DNA of 64,000 nt, from the NCBI GenBank assembly GCA_026388095.1, contig JAPLKL010000075.1, forward strand, positions 62,001-126,000. Direction: 5' to 3'. The translations under genes and the position numbers were made by a program. The stretch comes from Elusimicrobiota bacterium (GTDB lineage: Bacteria; Elusimicrobiota; Elusimicrobia; UBA1565; UBA9628). Of this stretch, positions 7,144 through 15,874 are shown one piece after another; the first letter of the stretch is position 1, and each line of letters opens with the position of its first letter. The notes beneath the pieces were generated by a model, which saw only the letters and a program-made list of their open reading frames with translations, did no database searches and was not told the DNA's origin.

Positions 7144-9585
7144 CTATTTTATAGCCTTGAGCACAGCGGTCAAGGCCTCGTATTCCCGGATCACGTAGCC
7201 TTTCCAGAGCCCGCCGTCCTGGAGGGCCTTTTTGACCGCCGACGCGCAGTCCGCCCCTGACGTCTGGGCCTTGAGCGCGCTCCAAGCCAGGTTGAGGGCC
7301 TCCTCGATGTCGGATCCCAATGCCGACCGGGCCTTGGCCAAAGCGAGGAGGGCCAGCGCCTGCTCTGCGGCCTTGACCGCGTCCGCGCCGGGCTCGTGGA
7401 ACGCCCCCTGCGCGTCCTGGAGCGCGATGAGCTTGCGGGCCAAAGACGCGGACGGCGCCGCCAACAGTTCCCGCGCCAGCTTGTCCACCATGGCGGGCGC
7501 CTGAGTCCGGGCCGGCACGGGCGGGGTGGCGGGCCCGGGCATGAAGATGGGCTGGCCCGCGTCCGGGCGTCTCTGCCTCATCGTCTTATACATCCGGCCC
7601 GACGCCTCTGAAGCGCCAGCCGGGGCGGCCATGTTCTGATACATCCCGGAGGATCCGCCGGCGCCTCTCACCGCCGAGACCGCCGCGCCGCCGAAGAATC
7701 CCTCGTGCACCGTGCCCTCGGGTATCGGCGCCTCCACCGGCACGACCATGGGCTTCTGGCCCTTGGCCACGGTGGGGGTCTCATCGACGGCCACGAAGGA
7801 GGTGAAGCGCGAGACCAGCTTGTGCTTGAGCGCGAGCTCCGTGATCTGGTTCTCGACCGTCTCGTTCTTCCCCTGGTAGCACTGCCGCTCGAGCTCGGTT
7901 ATGCGGGACCGGGCCCAGAGCGGGCCCATGGGCTCATGCTTGGGCGCCTGGTCCGGCAGATCCACCTCCACCGGCATGCTCCAGGCCTTGCCGTTGAGCT
8001 TGCCCTGGAGGGTGATCGTCGCCTTACCGGGCGTCTCGTAGCGCCCGTGGATGAACACGGGCTGTCCCGCGAAGAGGTCCGGGACGTACAGCGGGGAAGG
8101 GTCGAGCACCTTGAGGCCGTTCCAGTCCACGGAGAGGTCGGTCAGGTAGGGCTTGGCGATGCGGTCGTAGAAGCCGCTGATGACCTTCTCCAGCTTGGCT
8201 TGCCGCTCATCCTGCCGCACGTATTGGACGGAGCCCTTGCCCATGACCGCGAGCTCCTCGAGCAGGTAGCGGTTGGGCGCGGAGCCCACGCCCAGCGGGA
8301 AGATGCGGGAGTTGTTGAGGTGCTCCCTGACGTAGGCGAGGATCTGGCTCTCGTTGCCGATGAAGCCGTCGGTCATGAAGAGCACGATGCGCAGGCGCGC
8401 CGGGTCCTTGGGGGCCTCCAGCACCTGGCGGATGGCGTCGAGCATCTCGGTCCCGCCGCCGCCGCTCAAGGAGTTGATGGCCTCCCGGGCCCGGGCCACG
8501 TTCTCCGGGGTGTTGGGCTGGGGCTTGTCGAAGACCAGCCGGTTGCCGGCGGAGAAGGCCAGGATCTGGAAGGTGTCCTGGGGGTTCATCTGGTCCAGGC
8601 AGTGCCGGGCCAGCTCCTTGGAGGTCTCCACCGGGAAGCCGCTCATGGAGCCGGAGACGTCCAGGGCGAAGACCAGCTCCTTGGGCGTGATCTGGGAGAG
8701 CGGGAAGTCCGCCTTGGGCTGGATCATGAGGGTGAGGTAGCCTTCCGGTCCGGTCTTGTGCGCCAGGACCGCGGTCTGCACGGGCTTGTCCTTGGGCTGG
8801 TAGGTCAGGATGAAGTCCTTGTTGGGGATGCTGTCCTCCGGGCTCAAGGTGACCGCGGCCTTGGTGTCGCCGTCGAGGTCCACGCTCACGTCGTGGGACT
8901 TGGACTTGATGTCCTGCACGGCTATGCCCGCGTCGAGCCGGACCGTGAGCGTGATGTTGCGCCCGGGCCGCGCCCCGGGGCGCACCGGCGGCGGGGTGAT
9001 GCGGCCGGCGTCCGGGACCGCGTCGCCCTTGGGGATGTAGCGCGGCCCCACCACCATGGGGAAGACGAAGGTGTAGACCTTGGCTTCGTACTTGAGGGTC
9101 TGGAGGTAGCGGAGCTTGACCGTGATCGACTGGCCCGGAGGGATGTTGGCCACCGACTGGGTGAAGATGTTGGGCCGCTCCTGGTCGAGCAGGGCCGCGG
9201 TCTTGCCCTCGAGCTTGGCCTTCTCGTATATCTCCTTGGCCTCGGCCCGCTTCTTGATGAGACCCTTGATGACCCGGTCGGCCACGGTCAGCGTCATCTC
9301 GTTGACCGCGGCGTTCTCCGGCAAGGGGAAGACGTATACGGCCTCGATGGGCTTCTCGGCCGGGTTCTGGAAGACCTGCGTGACCTCGACGTCGGCCACG
9401 AAGCCCGATATTCTGGCCTTCACGTCCGTGCTCTTGAGGGGCAGTATCCTGGGCGCCTCGGCCGCGCCTTCCGACTTGATCTGGAGCGAGCCCTCGCCAA
9501 GATCCTGCTGCGCCGCCAGCGGCGCCGCCAGCGCCGCGGCCAGGAACGCCGCCGCCGCGACCTTCGTCAGATTCTCCATTTTCAT
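7144..9585 (-). CDS. Exported VIT and von Willebrand factor A domain protein
   Basis: The ATG at 9585 is 6 nt after GGAGG and starts a signal peptide (about residues 1-24). The 813-residue product has a VIT domain (about 35-170, with VYVFPLPENAAVNEM and IANIPPGQ-like motifs). A VWA domain follows (about 300-470), with an intact metal-ion-dependent adhesion site DVSGSMS and MTDGFIGNE. The C-terminal helical region of about 150 residues is preceded by an Ala/Gly/Pro-rich linker. VIT-VWA proteins are inter-alpha-trypsin-inhibitor-heavy-chain-like and act in extracellular binding or adhesion. The anchoring mode is not evident, since no sortase or TM tail is seen. Confidence 0.88.
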   Translation of the reverse strand: MKMENLTKVAAAAFLAAALAAPLAAQQDLGEGSLQIKSEGAAEAPRILPLKSTDVKARISGFVADVEVTQVFQNPAEKPIEAVYVFPLPENAAVNEMTLTVADRVIKGLIKKRAEAKEIYEKAKLEGKTAALLDQERPNIFTQSVANIPPGQSITVKLRYLQTLKYEAKVYTFVFPMVVGPRYIPKGDAVPDAGRITPPPVRPGARPGRNITLTVRLDAGIAVQDIKSKSHDVSVDLDGDTKAAVTLSPEDSIPNKDFILTYQPKDKPVQTAVLAHKTGPEGYLTLMIQPKADFPLSQITPKELVFALDVSGSMSGFPVETSKELARHCLDQMNPQDTFQILAFSAGNRLVFDKPQPNTPENVARAREAINSLSGGGGTEMLDAIRQVLEAPKDPARLRIVLFMTDGFIGNESQILAYVREHLNNSRIFPLGVGSAPNRYLLEELAVMGKGSVQYVRQDERQAKLEKVISGFYDRIAKPYLTDLSVDWNGLKVLDPSPLYVPDLFAGQPVFIHGRYETPGKATITLQGKLNGKAWSMPVEVDLPDQAPKHEPMGPLWARSRITELERQCYQGKNETVENQITELALKHKLVSRFTSFVAVDETPTVAKGQKPMVVPVEAPIPEGTVHEGFFGGAAVSAVRGAGGSSGMYQNMAAPAGASEASGRMYKTMRQRRPDAGQPIFMPGPATPPVPARTQAPAMVDKLARELLAAPSASLARKLIALQDAQGAFHEPGADAVKAAEQALALLALAKARSALGSDIEEALNLAWSALKAQTSGADCASAVKKALQDGGLWKGYVIREYEALTAVLKAIK

Positions 9586-9699
9586 GCCCCACCTCCAGGC
9601 CTGCGGCCGATGTGACACCGGCCCCGGGATAATGTTCCCGGACCTTCAGGCATGATATCAAAAGCCGTCCATCCGAGTACCCATGACGGAACGCAGGTC

Positions 9700-9960
9700 T
9701 TGACTAATCCTGATATCCGGTTATACTCACTGAGTCGGGCGTTCGTGCGCATGTCCTGAGTCCGGCGTCGTCGACGTGGTCGGTAGCGAGAAGCGAGTTC
9801 GGCGGATCGTGCGTCGCGTTCGTGGCCGGTGCCGCATCGGACCGTGCGTAAGCAGGCGTTCGTCGCAGTCGCGGTGTGTGCCGGACTCAGGACCAGGTCG
9901 TATACTCTGGGGCGCCCAGGCAGTCGATAGAACGACGCTTGCCTGGGCGCCTCGCTCTTT
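9700..9960 (+). ncRNA. Putative structured small RNA, copy 1
   Basis: A promoter (TTGACT 9700-9705, 16-nt spacer, TATACT 9722-9727) predicts a start near 9734. A 14-bp perfect long-range stem pairs GTCCTGAGTCCGGC (9753-9766) with its complement at 9880-9893. A 12-bp terminator stem follows: GGCGCCCAGGCA 9911-9922 with 9940-9951, an inner GTCG/CGAC stem, then TCGCTCTTT. A homologous unit lies at 13931-14190. In the terminator stem the C-G pair here is an A-T pair in the other copy, so pairing is conserved while the sequence changes. No coding frame is shared. The family is not recognised. The U tract touches the stop codon of the convergent gene. Confidence 0.8.
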
Positions 9961-10684
9961 ATGGGCCGCCGGGGGTCTCCACCTCGGCCAGCAGCCTCTT
10001 GAGCGACAGAAGGTCCTGGCCCAGCTTCCCCGCGCAGGCCGAGAGCGCCGTGTTCCAGGCCGCCCGCGCCGCGCCTTTCAGACCCTGGCGATACAAGGCC
10101 ATGCCCCGGCCGATCTGGGCCAGCCCCGCCGACGAGCCGAAGTGGTCCACCCCGGCGAATTCCTGGGCGGCCATGTCCGGAGAGCCGTCCAGGAGCCGGA
10201 TGGCTCCGCGGACCACCGGGGTATGTTGGAAGCTGACTGCCACCCCGGCGGCGTCCTTTGATCCGTTGGCCGCCATCTCGGCGAAGAGCAGCAGCAGCAG
10301 CAGCTTCAGGAAATGCGCCTCGACGTCCTGGGCGACGCAGTCGGCCGCGCGGCCCCAGGACTCCATCGTCTGCGTGAGCCGGTCCTGGTCCTGCCCGGAG
10401 AGCAAGGCGACGATCCGGGCGAAATGGGCCTCGAAGAGGTCGGGCTTGGCCGCGATCGCCGCGTCAGCGTCCTTCAGGGCTCCGGGGACATCCCGCTTCA
10501 TCCGCTTGAGCAGACTGCGGTAGGCCAGGGCCTTGGCCTTGGTCTGCGGGCAGCGGGCGGCCTGGTCCAGGGCGGAGGCCGCTTCAGCGATCCGCCGCTG
10601 CCACAGCTTGGTCCGCCCCTCCCGGACCAGGCGCTCGGCGGCCTCGGCGTCCGGCGGCTTCATGAAGAGGTCGAGGATGCCCAT
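9959..10684 (-). CDS. TPR-like cytoplasmic protein
   Basis: The 241-residue product has no signal peptide and consists of helical pairs resembling tetratricopeptide repeats, for example LVREGRTKLWQRRIAEAASALDQAARC, then ALKDADAAIAAKPDLFEAHF and MALYRQGLKGAARAAWNTAL. It is probably a protein-interaction module, and no catalytic residues are evident. The -10 hexamer TAGGAT (10696-10691, minus) ends 6 nt before the ATG, suggesting a leaderless transcript. It is divergent from the CDF transporter, 77 bp apart, and convergent with the small RNA. Confidence 0.65.
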   Translation of the reverse strand: MGILDLFMKPPDAEAAERLVREGRTKLWQRRIAEAASALDQAARCPQTKAKALAYRSLLKRMKRDVPGALKDADAAIAAKPDLFEAHFARIVALLSGQDQDRLTQTMESWGRAADCVAQDVEAHFLKLLLLLLFAEMAANGSKDAAGVAVSFQHTPVVRGAIRLLDGSPDMAAQEFAGVDHFGSSAGLAQIGRGMALYRQGLKGAARAAWNTALSACAGKLGQDLLSLKRLLAEVETPGGP

Positions 10685-10761
10685 GGCTGAATCCTACAAA
10701 ATCCGGTCCCGGGGCCCGGTGACCTCTTTCCTGCGGAGGCCATCTTATCTACAATCCTAGG

Positions 10762-11676
10762 ATGAACGCGCCGGACAAGAAGTCAGGCGACGCCAAGGAG
10801 AGCCTCCTAGGCCAGAGCGTCCTCATCGAGCTCGCCGGCCTGGTCATCGAAGTCGCGGCCGCCCTCCAGTCGAATTCCCTCTCGCTTTACGCCGACCTTA
10901 TCCAAGAAGGCGTGGAGACCTTGGCCACGATCGTGGCCTGGGGCACTTTGCGCCATCTGCGCCGGCACCACTATGAGTTCGATTTCGGGCTCGGCAAGGT
11001 GGAGAGCCTCCTGGGCCTGGTGGTCGCCGGAGGCATGGCCGTCTCCGTCTACTCCATCGCCCATGAGGCCCTGGCGCGCCTGGCCGCGCCGCAGCCCCTG
11101 GAAAAGGTCGGCCTCGGGCTGGCCATGATCGTCGCCTGGATCGGCGTGGACGGCTATTACTGGTGGAAGTTCGTCCAGCTCGACCGCCAGCACCCCTCGC
11201 CCGTGCTGGAAGCCACCGGGAAATCCTACCGGGCCGGCACCGTGGTCTGCGTGGCGCTCACCGCCACGCTCCTGGCCGGCAAGCTCCTGGAGGACCATCC
11301 CTGGGCCCTGTACATCGACCCCCTCGTCTCCCTCGGCTACGCGGTCTACATGCTGAAGACGATCTACGAGATCACGGCCCGCGCCCTCGGCGACCTGACG
11401 GACTGCACTCTCGACGAGACCCTCCAGCTGGCCATCGTGCGCGAGCTGGCCCGCTTCTTCCACGACTACAGGCTGCTGCACGACGTGAAGTCGCGCCGCT
11501 CCGGGGGGACCGTGCAGATCGAGCTGCACCTGGAGTTCCACCCGGACCAGAAGATGTCCGAGGTCTACGAAGTGTCCGAGCGCATGAGCGCGAGCCTGCA
11601 GGCCAAGATCCGCGGCAGCCGGGTGATCATCGTGCCCGCGCGGCGCAAGACCGCACCCCAACGGAGAGAACCATGA
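10762..11676 (+). CDS. Cation diffusion facilitator (CDF) family transporter
   Basis: The 304-residue product has six predicted transmembrane segments and a C-terminal cytoplasmic domain (about residues 215-300), the usual CDF layout and length. Family motifs are visible in TM2 (SNSLSLYADLIQEGVETL) and TM5 (YIDPLVSLGYAVYM), where acidic residues normally bind Zn2+, Fe2+ or Mn2+. The canonical HSxxD of TM2 is replaced by QEGVE, so metal selectivity may differ. It would export divalent metal from the cytoplasm. TACAAT at 10750-10755 ends 6 nt before the ATG, so the mRNA is predicted leaderless. It overlaps the WD40 gene by 4 nt. Confidence 0.85.
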   Translation: MNAPDKKSGDAKESLLGQSVLIELAGLVIEVAAALQSNSLSLYADLIQEGVETLATIVAWGTLRHLRRHHYEFDFGLGKVESLLGLVVAGGMAVSVYSIAHEALARLAAPQPLEKVGLGLAMIVAWIGVDGYYWWKFVQLDRQHPSPVLEATGKSYRAGTVVCVALTATLLAGKLLEDHPWALYIDPLVSLGYAVYMLKTIYEITARALGDLTDCTLDETLQLAIVRELARFFHDYRLLHDVKSRRSGGTVQIELHLEFHPDQKMSEVYEVSERMSASLQAKIRGSRVIIVPARRKTAPQRREP

Positions 11677-12665
11677 AACGCCCCTCTTTTCCCCTCGCCG
11701 CCGCGGCGCTGCTCGGCCTGTCTTTGAGCGCCTCGGCCAAGTCGAAGCCTTCGGGCATCTGGTACGGCCACACCGACGGCGTCGTCTATCTGGCCTTCTC
11801 CCCCGACGGGACCAAGGCGCTCTCCGGCAGCGGCGACAAGACCGTCCGGCTCTGGGACGTGGCCACCGGCGAGCTCCTGTCCACATTCGAGGGCCACGCG
11901 ACCCCGGTCGCGGCCGTGGCCTTCTCCACCGACGCCAAGACCGCGCTCTCCGCCAGCGACCAGCTCTGCCTGCGGTCCTGGGACATCGCCACGGGCGAGC
12001 CGGTCCTCTCCACGCCGGGGCAGGCCGCCTTCATCTACGCCGCGCAATTCTCCCCGGACGGCGCGAAGGTGATCTCCGGCGGGAGCGACCGCACCCTGCG
12101 GCTCTGGGACGCGAAGTCCGGCAAGGAGCTCTCCTATTGGCCGGGCTATACGGACTACATCCAGACCGTGGCCTTCTCCCAGGACGGGACCCGGGCTCTG
12201 GTCGGCGGCGGCACCACGGAGATCCGGGATGTGGCCAGCGGCAAGATCCTCGTGTTCCTCGCGTCGCCGCTGGGATTGGTCTACGACGTCGACCTTTCCC
12301 CGGATGGGAAGCTCGCCCTGACCGGAGGCTGGGACGGGAGCATCCGGCTCTGGGACGCGGCGACCGGGGACGAGAAAGCCATCTGGAAGGGGCACAGCGC
12401 GGCCGTGGCCTGGTGCTCCTTCTCCCCGGACGGGACCTTGGTCATCTCCGGGAGCTACGACAACACGGTCCGGCTCTGGGACGTGGCCACGGGCCGATGC
12501 ATCAAGGTCTGGACCGGCCACACCGGCCGGGTCAATGCCGTGGCCTTCTCGCCGGACGGACGGCTGGCCCTCTCCGGCAGCGATGACCGCACTCTGCGTC
12601 TCTGGGATGTGAGCCGCGCGCTCGCCGACTTCCGGGCCAAGCCGCCCGAAAAGACCGCGCCCTGA
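11673..12665 (+). CDS. Exported WD40 beta-propeller protein
   Basis: The ATG at 11673 overlaps the transporter stop (ATGA) behind a GGAGAG site. The 330-residue product starts with a signal peptide (LAAAALLGLSLSASA). It then has seven WD40 blades, with repeated GH...AFSPDG...SGS.D.TVRLWD signatures, enough for one closed propeller. It is probably a periplasmic protein-interaction platform. Coupling to a metal exporter suggests a linked role, but nothing in the sequence shows one. Confidence 0.85.
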   Translation: MKRPSFPLAAAALLGLSLSASAKSKPSGIWYGHTDGVVYLAFSPDGTKALSGSGDKTVRLWDVATGELLSTFEGHATPVAAVAFSTDAKTALSASDQLCLRSWDIATGEPVLSTPGQAAFIYAAQFSPDGAKVISGGSDRTLRLWDAKSGKELSYWPGYTDYIQTVAFSQDGTRALVGGGTTEIRDVASGKILVFLASPLGLVYDVDLSPDGKLALTGGWDGSIRLWDAATGDEKAIWKGHSAAVAWCSFSPDGTLVISGSYDNTVRLWDVATGRCIKVWTGHTGRVNAVAFSPDGRLALSGSDDRTLRLWDVSRALADFRAKPPEKTAP

Positions 12666-12692
12666 CCGCGCGGAAGAACAGGAGGGATGTCC

Positions 12693-13904
12693 ATGAAACG
12701 CTCTATGCGATGGTTCCTGGCAACCGCCTTGTCGCTGGCCTCGCTAGCGCCAGGCTATGCCGGCGATGACGCCCCCGCTCCGCCTCCGATGAGATCGTTC
12801 GAGGGCGGCAAGCTCTACATGTCTCCCCGCGGGAAGTTCTACATCGCGGAGCTCCACGGCAATTTCCGGCAGATGGGCAGGCAGTACGGCAATCTCTTGG
12901 GCGAACAGATCCAGGCCTTCTACCGGGAAGTCTATGACGAGGGCATCTTGAAGATGCCTAAAGCGAACTTCGCGGAGCTGGCGCAGTCGGGGGAGGCCTA
13001 TTATGCCTCCATGCCGCAGATGTTCAAAGAGTTCGTCGATGGCGTCGCGGAGACCAACGGGCTCAACGCTGAGAAGACAAGGATACAGACGGCGACGGTG
13101 CTGATCCTGGCCATGTCGGGCTGCAGCAGCCTGTCAGCCTGGGGGGACTATACCGGCGGAGGACCTCTTGTGGTGGGCCGGAACCTGGACCTTGCGAGCA
13201 AGAGTCTCGGAAAGTATGCCAAGTACTGGAACGTCCTGATATGGAATCCGGAAGGATACGGCCACTCTGTCGCCCATATCGATTATGTGGGCGGTCTTTT
13301 CTACCAGACCGCCTTCAACAGCAAGGGCATATTCCTGGAGCTTCAGAACGGGCAGGCCTCGGACAAGGAGACCCCGAAGGACAGAGAGAACACCAATCAC
13401 GCGCTTCTCGCCTCTTTGTTCAGCGCCTCATCCATGGCGGATATGGAGAATTTCTTCCAGACGACACGCCCGCAAGCCGGGCTGATCATGAACGCCTCTT
13501 CGCCTGAGAAAAGCGTCATCTATGAATGGGCGACGTTCCGGACCGTGCGCCGGGAGGGCCCTGGCCTCATCTCCGCATCCAACGACTTCCTCGACCCGTC
13601 CTGGAAGGAATACAAGGTGCCGTACTTCAACAAGAAGAATGAAGGGGTAGGACAAACCTATACGAGAAGAACGAACCTGCTCGATCTTGGACGGAAATCA
13701 AAAGGCAAGATGACCCCGCAGGCCATGATGCGGATATTCGACACCCCGATCCCCCAGGGAGGCGCGACGTTCCCGGACGATGGGGTCGTCAGGTCGATCT
13801 ATCAGGTCGTGGCTGTGCCGGCGGAACTGAAGATGTGGCTCAAGGTGCGCGGGTACTCGGAATGGGAGGAGATCGATCTTAAAAAATATTTCCAGGCCCC
13901 GTAG
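12693..13904 (+). CDS. Exported C45-type Ntn hydrolase (acyl-CoA:6-APA acyltransferase-like)
   Basis: AGGAGGG sits 6 nt before the ATG at 12693. The ATG at 12687 abuts that site and is unlikely. The 403-residue product has a signal peptide. The family hallmark LAMSGCSSLSAWG places a predicted nucleophile at Cys144, which would become the N-terminal residue of the beta chain after autocleavage. GGGPLVVGRNLDL follows it, as in peptidase family C45. Such enzymes cleave or transfer amides, and the substrate cannot be inferred. It is preceded by the WD40 gene (27 nt gap), possibly in one transcript. Confidence 0.78.
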   Translation: MKRSMRWFLATALSLASLAPGYAGDDAPAPPPMRSFEGGKLYMSPRGKFYIAELHGNFRQMGRQYGNLLGEQIQAFYREVYDEGILKMPKANFAELAQSGEAYYASMPQMFKEFVDGVAETNGLNAEKTRIQTATVLILAMSGCSSLSAWGDYTGGGPLVVGRNLDLASKSLGKYAKYWNVLIWNPEGYGHSVAHIDYVGGLFYQTAFNSKGIFLELQNGQASDKETPKDRENTNHALLASLFSASSMADMENFFQTTRPQAGLIMNASSPEKSVIYEWATFRTVRREGPGLISASNDFLDPSWKEYKVPYFNKKNEGVGQTYTRRTNLLDLGRKSKGKMTPQAMMRIFDTPIPQGGATFPDDGVVRSIYQVVAVPAELKMWLKVRGYSEWEEIDLKKYFQAP

Positions 13905-13930
13905 AACGGACGGATGACGGGACCTGGGTC

Positions 13931-14190
13931 TTGACGAATCGCGGTATCCGGCTATACTCCTTGAGTCGGACGTTCGTGTGCCTGTCCTGAGTCCGGTGTC
14001 GTCGAAGTGGTCGGTAACGAGAAGTGGTTCAACGGACCGTACGCCGAGGTCGTGGCCGTCGCCGCATCGGGCCGTGCGTAAGTCGCCGTTGCAGTCGCGG
14101 TGCGTTCCGGACTCAGGACGGGTCGTCCGGCAGACTCTGAGGCGCCAAGGCAGTCGATAGAACGACGCTTGCCTTGGCGCCTCACTTTGT
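13931..14190 (+). ncRNA. Putative structured small RNA, copy 2
   Basis: This has the same architecture as 9700-9960. TTGACG (13931-13936), a 16-nt spacer and TATACT (13953-13958) make the promoter. A 13-bp stem pairs GTCCTGAGTCCGG (13984-13996) with 14107-14119. The terminator stem GGCGCCAAGGCA (14141-14152) pairs with 14170-14181 and is followed by TCACTTTGT. The terminator loop (GTCGATAGAACGAC) is identical to copy 1, while the stem carries a compensatory pair. Overall identity is roughly 80% by eye. It occupies the gap after the Ntn hydrolase. Confidence 0.8.
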
Positions 14191-14254
14191 CATAGGCCTT
14201 TAGACCCAGAGCCCGCTTCCCCCCATGGCCCTGGGGCCGGACCCGGCCCCGCCC

Positions 14255-14418
14255 TATACTGAACATGAAGGGCATCACCCTCCTACCCGAGCGGCACCTT
14301 CCGACATCGTTCCGGAAGAGTCCCGCAAGGGATCCCGGGTGACAGCCGAGCCGAAGAGGACGCCCCTCCAAGGCTTAACGAATAGTCCGCCTCCAGACTC
14401 AGGGAGGCGGACTTTTTT
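14255..14418 (+). ncRNA. Possible short transcript ending at an intrinsic terminator
   Basis: TATACT at 14255-14260 and a perfect terminator at 14385-14418 bracket about 155 nt. The terminator is a 10-bp stem GTCCGCCTCC/GGAGGCGGAC with an 8-nt loop and then T6. No convincing -35 is present. The interval holds only a 25-codon frame (ATG 14265). It could be a small RNA, a leader peptide, or only a terminator for the upstream small RNA. The T6 points rightward, so it does not serve the convergent SUMF1-like gene. Confidence 0.35.
14385..14418 (+). terminator. Strong intrinsic terminator
   Basis: A 10-bp perfect GC-rich stem (14385-14394 with 14403-14412) has loop AGACTCAG and is followed by six T. 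It points rightward and overlaps the last codons of the convergent SUMF1-like gene. Confidence 0.75.
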
Positions 14419-15874
14419 CTGGGAGGTCGGATTGCGCCAGGCGGAACCCGACGTCGCTGGCGCGTTTGCCCGCGTCGCGGGAGCCGCGGGCGGCGGAGCG
14501 CAGGGAGGCGGCGCCGTAGCTCCAGGCGCCGCCCCGGATGACCCGCTCCGGGCCGGCCGCTGCTTCCCAGGCGCTGCCGTCCCTCGGCGCCTCGCTGTAG
14601 GTGTCGTGATACCGGTCCTGCACCCACTGCCACGCATCGCCCGCCATGTCGCAAAGTCCTTGCCGGGTATTGCCCTCGGGCTTCGAGCAGACCGGCCAGG
14701 TGGAGGCTTTGCCGCAGCCGGTCCGGCTGGCCTGAGGCCAACGCGAGTCATCGAACACCGCCAGCCTGCAGGTCGCCTCATCATCGCCCCAAGGATACTT
14801 CAGCCGCTCGCCCCGTCCGCGGGCCGCGTACTCCCATTCCGCCTCGGTGGGCAGCCTGCCTCCGGCCCAGCGGGCGAAGGCTTGCGCCTGGTCCCAATCC
14901 ACGCCGACCGCGGGCTGGCCGCCGCCCTTGAACTTGTCGCCGCGGTCCGCGGGCGCGGCGCAGGCCCCGGCTTGGACGCAAGCCTGGTATTGCTTGTTCG
15001 TCACGAGCGTCCGGGCCAGCCGGAAGGTCCGCACACTGACCCGGTGCCGCGGCAAGGAGGACGGGCCGAGGTCGGTGGCGCCCATGACGAAGCTTCCGCC
15101 CGCGATGGTCACCCAGTCGATCGCCGCCAGCGCGCCGGCGTCCTCGGGGCTCAGCATCTCCTGGGGCAGGAACGGCAGGAGCTCGTCGATATGGGGGTCG
15201 TCCTCGGGGTCCTTGCCGTACGCTTTGACGAAAGCGGCCGCGAACCTCCTCTTGTCCCCCGCATCGACATCGGCCAGGGCCAGGAGCTTGCTCAGCCGGG
15301 ACCAGTCCTGGTCCCGGAGCTTCGCGCGCTGGCGCCTGACCTCATCCACCGCGGCCAGCTCGACCGCGTAGCGCTGCCATTCCCGGGCCTGCGCCAGAGC
15401 CGTCGGCGCGTAGGCGGGCCAGCTCTTGGCCAGCTCCAGCCAGGCGGCCCTTTTCTCGTCCGGGGCCGCGCCGCTGCCTTCCTTCTCCAGGACTGCGTCG
15501 AGCGTCCGCGCCGCCGCGTATTCTTCCCACTGCGCGGCGCGGTTCTGGCAGGCGCCCGCCAAGGCCTGGACTTGGCGCCCCAGGCCGCGCCAGCGGGCCG
15601 CCTTCTCCTGGGGCGGCGCGTCGCTGTCCTCGAAATGCGCCACCGCGTCGTACTCCTTGAGCCCGGCCGCATCCACGTTCTCGAAATGGAAGCTCTCGGC
15701 GCGGCCCGCCTCCACCGGCAGCTCGGCGCGCGGCCGGCTCCAGGCGCCGGCCGTCGCCGGTGCGGCGGCCGCGGGCAGCTCGGGCAAAGGACTGACCTGG
15801 AACTCGGCGGCGCCCGCGGCCGCGGGCCAGCCCGACAGCGCGGCGGCGACGAGGAGATCGGCGATGCCTTTCAT
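14399..15874 (-). CDS. Exported SUMF1/FGE-like domain protein
   Basis: The 491-residue product has a signal peptide and then a helical region of about 230 residues. A C-terminal sulfatase-modifying-factor fold follows (about 255-485), with GGSFVMG, LPTEAEWEYAARG, GLCDMAGDAWQWV, RGGAWSYG and DVGFRLA. The two active-site cysteines of true formylglycine-generating enzymes, near the RGGSF segment, are absent. It is therefore not a sulfatase activator by that mechanism. Extra cysteines (YQACVQAGAC and GCGKASTWPVC) recur in the paralogue at 59116-59919. It is last in the TPR/cNMP-binding operon, 8 nt after the preceding stop. Confidence 0.8.
   Translation of the reverse strand: MKGIADLLVAAALSGWPAAAGAAEFQVSPLPELPAAAAPATAGAWSRPRAELPVEAGRAESFHFENVDAAGLKEYDAVAHFEDSDAPPQEKAARWRGLGRQVQALAGACQNRAAQWEEYAAARTLDAVLEKEGSGAAPDEKRAAWLELAKSWPAYAPTALAQAREWQRYAVELAAVDEVRRQRAKLRDQDWSRLSKLLALADVDAGDKRRFAAAFVKAYGKDPEDDPHIDELLPFLPQEMLSPEDAGALAAIDWVTIAGGSFVMGATDLGPSSLPRHRVSVRTFRLARTLVTNKQYQACVQAGACAAPADRGDKFKGGGQPAVGVDWDQAQAFARWAGGRLPTEAEWEYAARGRGERLKYPWGDDEATCRLAVFDDSRWPQASRTGCGKASTWPVCSKPEGNTRQGLCDMAGDAWQWVQDRYHDTYSEAPRDGSAWEAAAGPERVIRGGAWSYGAASLRSAARGSRDAGKRASDVGFRLAQSDLPEKSPPP

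Follow-up and report, generated by a model that had tools for sequence, protein, structure and literature searches.

A family of small RNA genes almost certainly exists in one lineage of uncultured Elusimicrobiota and, judging from sequence comparison, it appears to be new and strongly conserved in shape. With a probability of about 0.45, we consider these loci to be a dispersed family of orphan noncoding RNA genes whose products would act in trans, the tip of their terminal hairpin binding a partner. A literature search turned up no study of small RNAs in Elusimicrobiota, and a conserved, promoter-driven and modular RNA family provides an entry to regulatory RNA use in such bacteria.

Two copies of a structured RNA gene

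The window, that is the whole stretch of DNA analysed (64,000 nt from Elusimicrobiota bacterium GCA_026388095.1, contig JAPLKL010000075.1, positions 62,001 to 126,000), holds two copies of the gene, both on the + strand. Copy 1 (9693-9962) is composed of a sigma-70-type promoter, a 14-bp closing stem and a terminator-like hairpin. The promoter (9693-9727) comprises a GCAGGTC element, the -35 box TTGACT (9700-9705), a 16-bp spacer and the -10 box TATACT (9722-9727); it had been called near-consensus in the original prediction and indeed carries 10 of 12 consensus bases, with three such sites in 9400-14500 versus 0.5 expected, two of them being the promoters of copies 1 and 2. From promoter and terminator, an RNA of about 229 nt is predicted (9734-9962), its start being placed ~7 nt past the -10 box. 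The proposed 14-bp long-range stem was also recovered: its 5' arm (GTCCTGAGTCCGGC, 9753-9766) pairs perfectly with its 3' arm (GCCGGACTCAGGAC, 9880-9893), enclosing a GUC-rich apical region of 113 nt (9767-9879). A GC-rich terminal hairpin follows (9909-9953), with a bulged tip, AGTCG-ATAGAA-CGAC-GCT, at 9922-9939, and directly 3' of it lies a weak T tract (CGCTCTTTAT, 9954-9962).

Copy 2 has the same layout at 13925-14192 and is 82% identical to copy 1 across 257 nt (E = 2.6e-69). Its promoter (13925-13958; TGGGTC element, TTGACG, 16 bp, TATACT) is followed by an outer stem (13963-13972 with 14124-14137), a closing stem whose arms lie at 13981-13996 and 14107-14122, and the terminal hairpin (14139-14183). 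The folding energies of the two copies were low (z = -3.9 and -5.6), and none of 200 dinucleotide shuffles was as low. R2, a covariance model built on the terminal hairpin, scored 75.8 bits at 9908-9962 and 75.4 bits at 14138-14192, versus 12.7 bits for the best match elsewhere in the window. The claim of an intrinsic terminator held with one qualification: a hairpin and a T run are present, but a simple terminator scan called neither copy's hairpin, because the bulge interrupts the stem and the T run is imperfect. The T tracts are weak in both window copies, and the hairpins of relatives run into T5-T7.

Regarding the surroundings of the two copies, the T tract of copy 1 (9954-9962), read on the - strand, provides the TAA stop of a convergent gene (9959-10684). 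The gene 5' of copy 1 (7144-9618, - strand) encodes a VIT/VWA-domain protein with no obvious link to the RNA. On the + strand 3' of copy 2, the segment 14250-14418 contains a TATACT box, then a structured-looking stretch that ends, at 14384-14413, in a strong hairpin with T6; Rfam gave no convincing match for it.

Base pairing, and not protein, is under selection as read from the alignments, in agreement with what had been proposed from the two copies. The C-G pair of the terminator stem in copy 1 (CCCAGG..CCTGGG) is A-T in copy 2 (CCAAGG..CCTTGG), while the hairpin tip is identical in both. Across 22 sequences the 18 pairs of the terminal hairpin were 98.2% paired and 12 of the 18 had changed on both sides, counts that lean towards the model because the alignments were partly hand-picked around the tip motif; the controls were clear despite this, with slid registers less than 50% paired and no match among 500 shuffles. 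The closing stem was 89% paired in 15 homologues, with changes on both sides in 8 of 17 pairs, and the outermost stem was weakly supported (57% paired). Consistently with an autonomous structured small RNA, the units thus combine their own promoter and terminator-like hairpin with compensatory base changes across species.

The hairpin motif reads R-GUCS-loop-SGAC-GCYN, namely a four-pair tip, a 3' bulge and an R-Y pair that is A-U in 11 hairpins and G-C in the other 11. The sequence of the tip loop is poorly conserved (AUAGAA, AUUGAA, AUAAAG, ACUGGAA, CUUAGU, GAUUAAAA), and any partner with sequence specificity would need to read the stem and the bulge. The dinucleotide bulge itself is not strictly kept in other families (GTC in L108). 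An ANTAR-type hexaloop (A1, G4) was considered and rejected: AUAGAA and AUUGAA fit it, but AUAAAG, CUUAGU and GAUUAAAA do not.

Distribution, copy number and modular make-up

R2 was used to search 341 genomes of the phylum Elusimicrobiota. It matched 33, of which 32 were convincing, the E-values of such home-made models being rough. Such a search had been proposed with the original prediction, which survived its own refuting condition, a lack of homologues with covarying pairs: homologues were found in 32 of the 341 genomes. The convincing carriers include 28 in the window's family, one in each of two sister families within the order (L108, L109) and two in a more distant family of the same class, with the same promoter (L112, L113). 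One match (G302, E = 0.004) was discounted, as the promoter was missing. When 84,980 species were scanned for the exact pattern, 14 loci were returned, 12 of them in Elusimicrobia; the two outside the phylum (Planctomycetota, Thermomicrobiaceae) lack the hairpin fold and were attributed to chance. All named carriers are Elusimicrobia metagenome-assembled genomes. No Rfam match to units of the family was found at gathering or relaxed thresholds (to E = 5), which agrees with its having been called undescribed.

The 4.6-Mb genome (79 contigs) to which the window belongs carries six copies, two of them in the window; three are similar full-length genes, two are more distant long forms and one is a mini form. 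Each of its six congeners has 2-4 copies, one genus has a single copy in most genomes, and carriers as a whole have 1-6, numbers that may be off because the genomes are metagenome bins. Two copies in G005 (contig C12; L138, 5110-5249 and 7818-7957) are 98% identical over 140 bp, exactly the unit; they lie 2.7 kb apart in unrelated flanks, with no target duplication. The gene is thus copied, by some route, as a discrete cassette of DNA. Copy 2 and a locus in another genome (G001:C402) have their downstream flank in common.

Alternatively, the units could be non-autonomous mobile repeats of the MITE, REP or BOX type, which spread as DNA copies and bring a promoter and hairpin with them. The G005 pair speaks for this, as do flanks that differ among copies, similarity being limited to the unit. 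We nevertheless consider it improbable, since genomes hold no more than six copies, neither terminal inverted repeats nor target duplications were seen, a mutL-linked gene has been retained in three families, and compensatory changes require selection at the RNA level. Moreover, searches of viral contigs and plasmids gave no hairpin match on either, and a phage or plasmid origin of the family was rejected on this basis.

The family is built from constant and variable parts. Constant are the unusual TGGGYCTTGAC-N17-TATACT promoter and the terminator hairpin with its bulged tip, whereas the 5' part takes one of three forms: a GUC-rich loop carried on a long closing stem, a short module or hairpin (L014, L020, L108, L109) or nothing at all, the last giving mini-RNAs of about 65 nt (L005, L011, L012, L016, L021, L028, L029). 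Mini, medium and long forms all occur at the mutL locus, in three families. At this mutS-mutL locus the RNA lies directly 3' of mutL in several genera and near mutL in 3/3 families of the order; queE is the next gene in one genus and in G005, and in the window's genus a mini and a long form are adjacent there. The mutL-linked mini-RNA of the window's genome lies at G000:C75:36097-36194. The mutL-linked site is probably ancestral, the window copies being later dispersals.

We considered the genes around each unit, with orientations taken from a simple GC3-based caller. Among 29 scorable units, 18 face a convergent gene. A cis-acting leader was rejected as a general rule for this reason; by this arrangement, the RNA is usually no leader of a downstream gene and most units appear autonomous. 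As 13 of the 29, copy 1 among them, end ≤15 bp from the convergent gene's stop end, the unit might instead work at the transcription or DNA level, as an insulator or bidirectional terminator between convergent genes with the RNA as a by-product, and this would suit both a hairpin that scores in antisense too and mini forms with little beyond promoter and hairpin. An insulator, however, needs no promoter, yet the promoter is the most conserved part of the unit; in addition, the conserved asymmetric bulge is of no help to termination and many units lie away from convergent ends. We therefore regard such a promoter-terminator cassette as unlikely.

A promoter shared with c-di-GMP-I riboswitch RNAs

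In the promoter, TGGGYC directly adjoins the -35 box; of 38 aligned units, 35 have a 16-bp spacer. The exact TGGGYCTTGAC-N17-TATACT pattern had 66 matches in 57 relatives, and the reversed pattern had none. Among 29 readable loci, 27 precede a structured RNA: nine belong to the small RNA family, c-di-GMP-I riboswitch RNAs account for 12 (nine with Rfam confirmation), two are aptamer-less riboswitch RNAs (L160, L177) and four are other hairpin RNAs, the remaining two loci being mRNA-like. This make-up indicates a promoter type that, in the genomes covered, is nearly dedicated to structured noncoding RNAs. Since the c-di-GMP-I riboswitch RNAs have the same promoter, they and the small RNA family are probably expressed in one regulon. 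A dyad, GGGTCTNNAGACCC, was considered as an operator and rejected, as it showed no enrichment in the window.

The same promoter precedes a second modular RNA family, in which a c-di-GMP-I aptamer is joined to another conserved terminal hairpin (tip CGGGAYAGAGGGGU). The aptamer is present in L152, L159, L161, L165, L168, L173 and L181, and has been lost, with promoter and hairpin kept, in L160, L177 and L080, the last in the window's own genome (G000:C79:74083); with this loss the distance from the -35 box to the tip falls from 172-192 to 83-85. Together with the shared promoter, these riboswitch units that keep the hairpin without the aptamer point to some function of the terminal hairpin itself, an idea that is testable.

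The c-di-GMP-I models RF01051 and RF03167 matched no member of the small RNA family, and nothing was found with them across the window's whole genome. In genus g1 (G000-G006), c-di-GMP-I riboswitches went undetected in the five species that carry 3-6 copies of the small RNA, and the two species with 2 copies (G002, G006) have three such riboswitches each, a post hoc comparison in a small sample.

Candidate mechanism and comparison with known RNAs

We explored whether carriers encode common RNA-binding partners. Hfq was found in none of 57 relatives, CsrA in two of the 57, both non-carriers, and ProQ in one of 38 genomes, again a non-carrier. Since none of the carriers searched encodes CsrA or ProQ, and Hfq is missing as well, all three were rejected as partners.

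The loop within the closing stem measures 81-115 nt in the window's genus and shows no excess structure (mean z +0.4). It is enriched in GTCGC, GCCGT and GGTCG, with a marked strand bias (GTCGC 39 vs 1 on the other strand; GCCGT 34 vs 0). In another genus the interior holds an extra conserved hairpin (GACGCCGAGTTGAGGCCGAGGCCGTAACCGGCG), and one copy (L023, about 200-370) has tandem GTCGCCGTTCGT-like units in its 5' part, which suggests that the GUC-rich region grows by slippage; the loop may be tolerated filler. In L158 (1501-1880) and L151 (- strand), from other families of the class, the same promoter is followed by a long RNA that is poor in A and rich in GUC/GUU, and the terminal hairpin differs; the loop composition recurs there with no obvious homology.

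Such a loop, large and free of excess structure on a GC stem, with a strong predicted promoter upstream and segments conserved within a genus (GTCGAAGTGGTCGGTAACG, GCCGTTGCAGTCGC), would be expected of a trans-acting base-pairing sRNA, in which the GUC-rich loop or the tip loop would pair with mRNAs and regulate translation chaperone-free. But the loop is dispensable, because the mini-RNAs retain just promoter and hairpin; moreover, it changes fast in length and sequence and looks low-complexity, the tip loop is not conserved, and Hfq and ProQ are absent. Base pairing with mRNAs is therefore a possible role, though a doubtful one.

By sequence, each gene has its own strong promoter and ends in the conserved bulged-tip hairpin followed by T residues, and in the window copies a closing stem of 14-16 bp holds out the GUC-rich loop of about 110 nt. 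In the favoured reading, that of orphan RNAs acting through their hairpin, the RNA would be abundant and act in trans. An RNA-binding partner, probably a protein other than Hfq, CsrA or ProQ, would recognize the bulged tip of the 3' hairpin, and the long loop, where present, could serve as a low-complexity decoy or docking surface. A broader and speculative extension is that, in this lineage without Hfq, CsrA and ProQ, the TGGGYCTTGAC promoter class might drive modular orphan RNAs in which the bulged terminator hairpin is the constant effector and the 5' module an exchangeable and losable sensor or decoy, a c-di-GMP aptamer in one branch and a GUC-rich loop in the present one. If true, this would amount to a chaperone-free RNA regulon tied to c-di-GMP via a hairpin-binding protein.

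The loose resemblance to 6S RNA noted originally did not withstand comparison. Ms1 is described as a lineage-specific 6S-like RNA (PMC9130861), and the small RNA family resembles 6S RNA and Ms1 in its long closing stem and large unpaired region. A diverged 6S RNA, or a 6S-like RNA that binds RNA polymerase, would also fit with one genus, most of whose genomes have just one copy, and with the lack of another 6S RNA in the 57 relatives, where the RF00013 model found nothing (0/57) while detecting its target in five known control genomes, E. coli and B. subtilis among them. However, RF00013 did not match the window unit even at E = 5, the ends do not form the closing stem, and in all members the 3' end is a separate terminator hairpin; the closing stem is optional, often missing and absent from the mini-RNAs, and the family is multicopy in the window's genus. 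A 6S identity was accordingly rejected, and a diverged or 6S-like RNA is very improbable.

In the same bacteria, units of the c-di-GMP-I-GGC riboswitch (RF03167) share with the small RNA family the promoter, a modular 5' part and a conserved terminal hairpin, but their hairpin is unrelated in sequence and their 5' module is a known aptamer. Sponge RNAs of the CsrB/RsmY type are multicopy, display short repeated motifs in loops and end in a terminator hairpin. The small RNA family is likewise multicopy, with short motifs displayed in a loop and a terminator hairpin, but its motifs are those listed above and not GGA, and the carriers searched lack CsrA.

The nearest functional precedent is merRNA of Bdellovibrio bacteriovorus, an orphan c-di-GMP riboswitch RNA that is massively expressed by RNA-seq and for which sequestration has been proposed (PMC3627812). 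Whereas the small RNA family has no c-di-GMP aptamer, both are orphan structured RNAs that do not lie 5' of a conserved gene, and the layout of merRNA resembles that of the c-di-GMP-I RNAs which have the promoter of the small RNA family.
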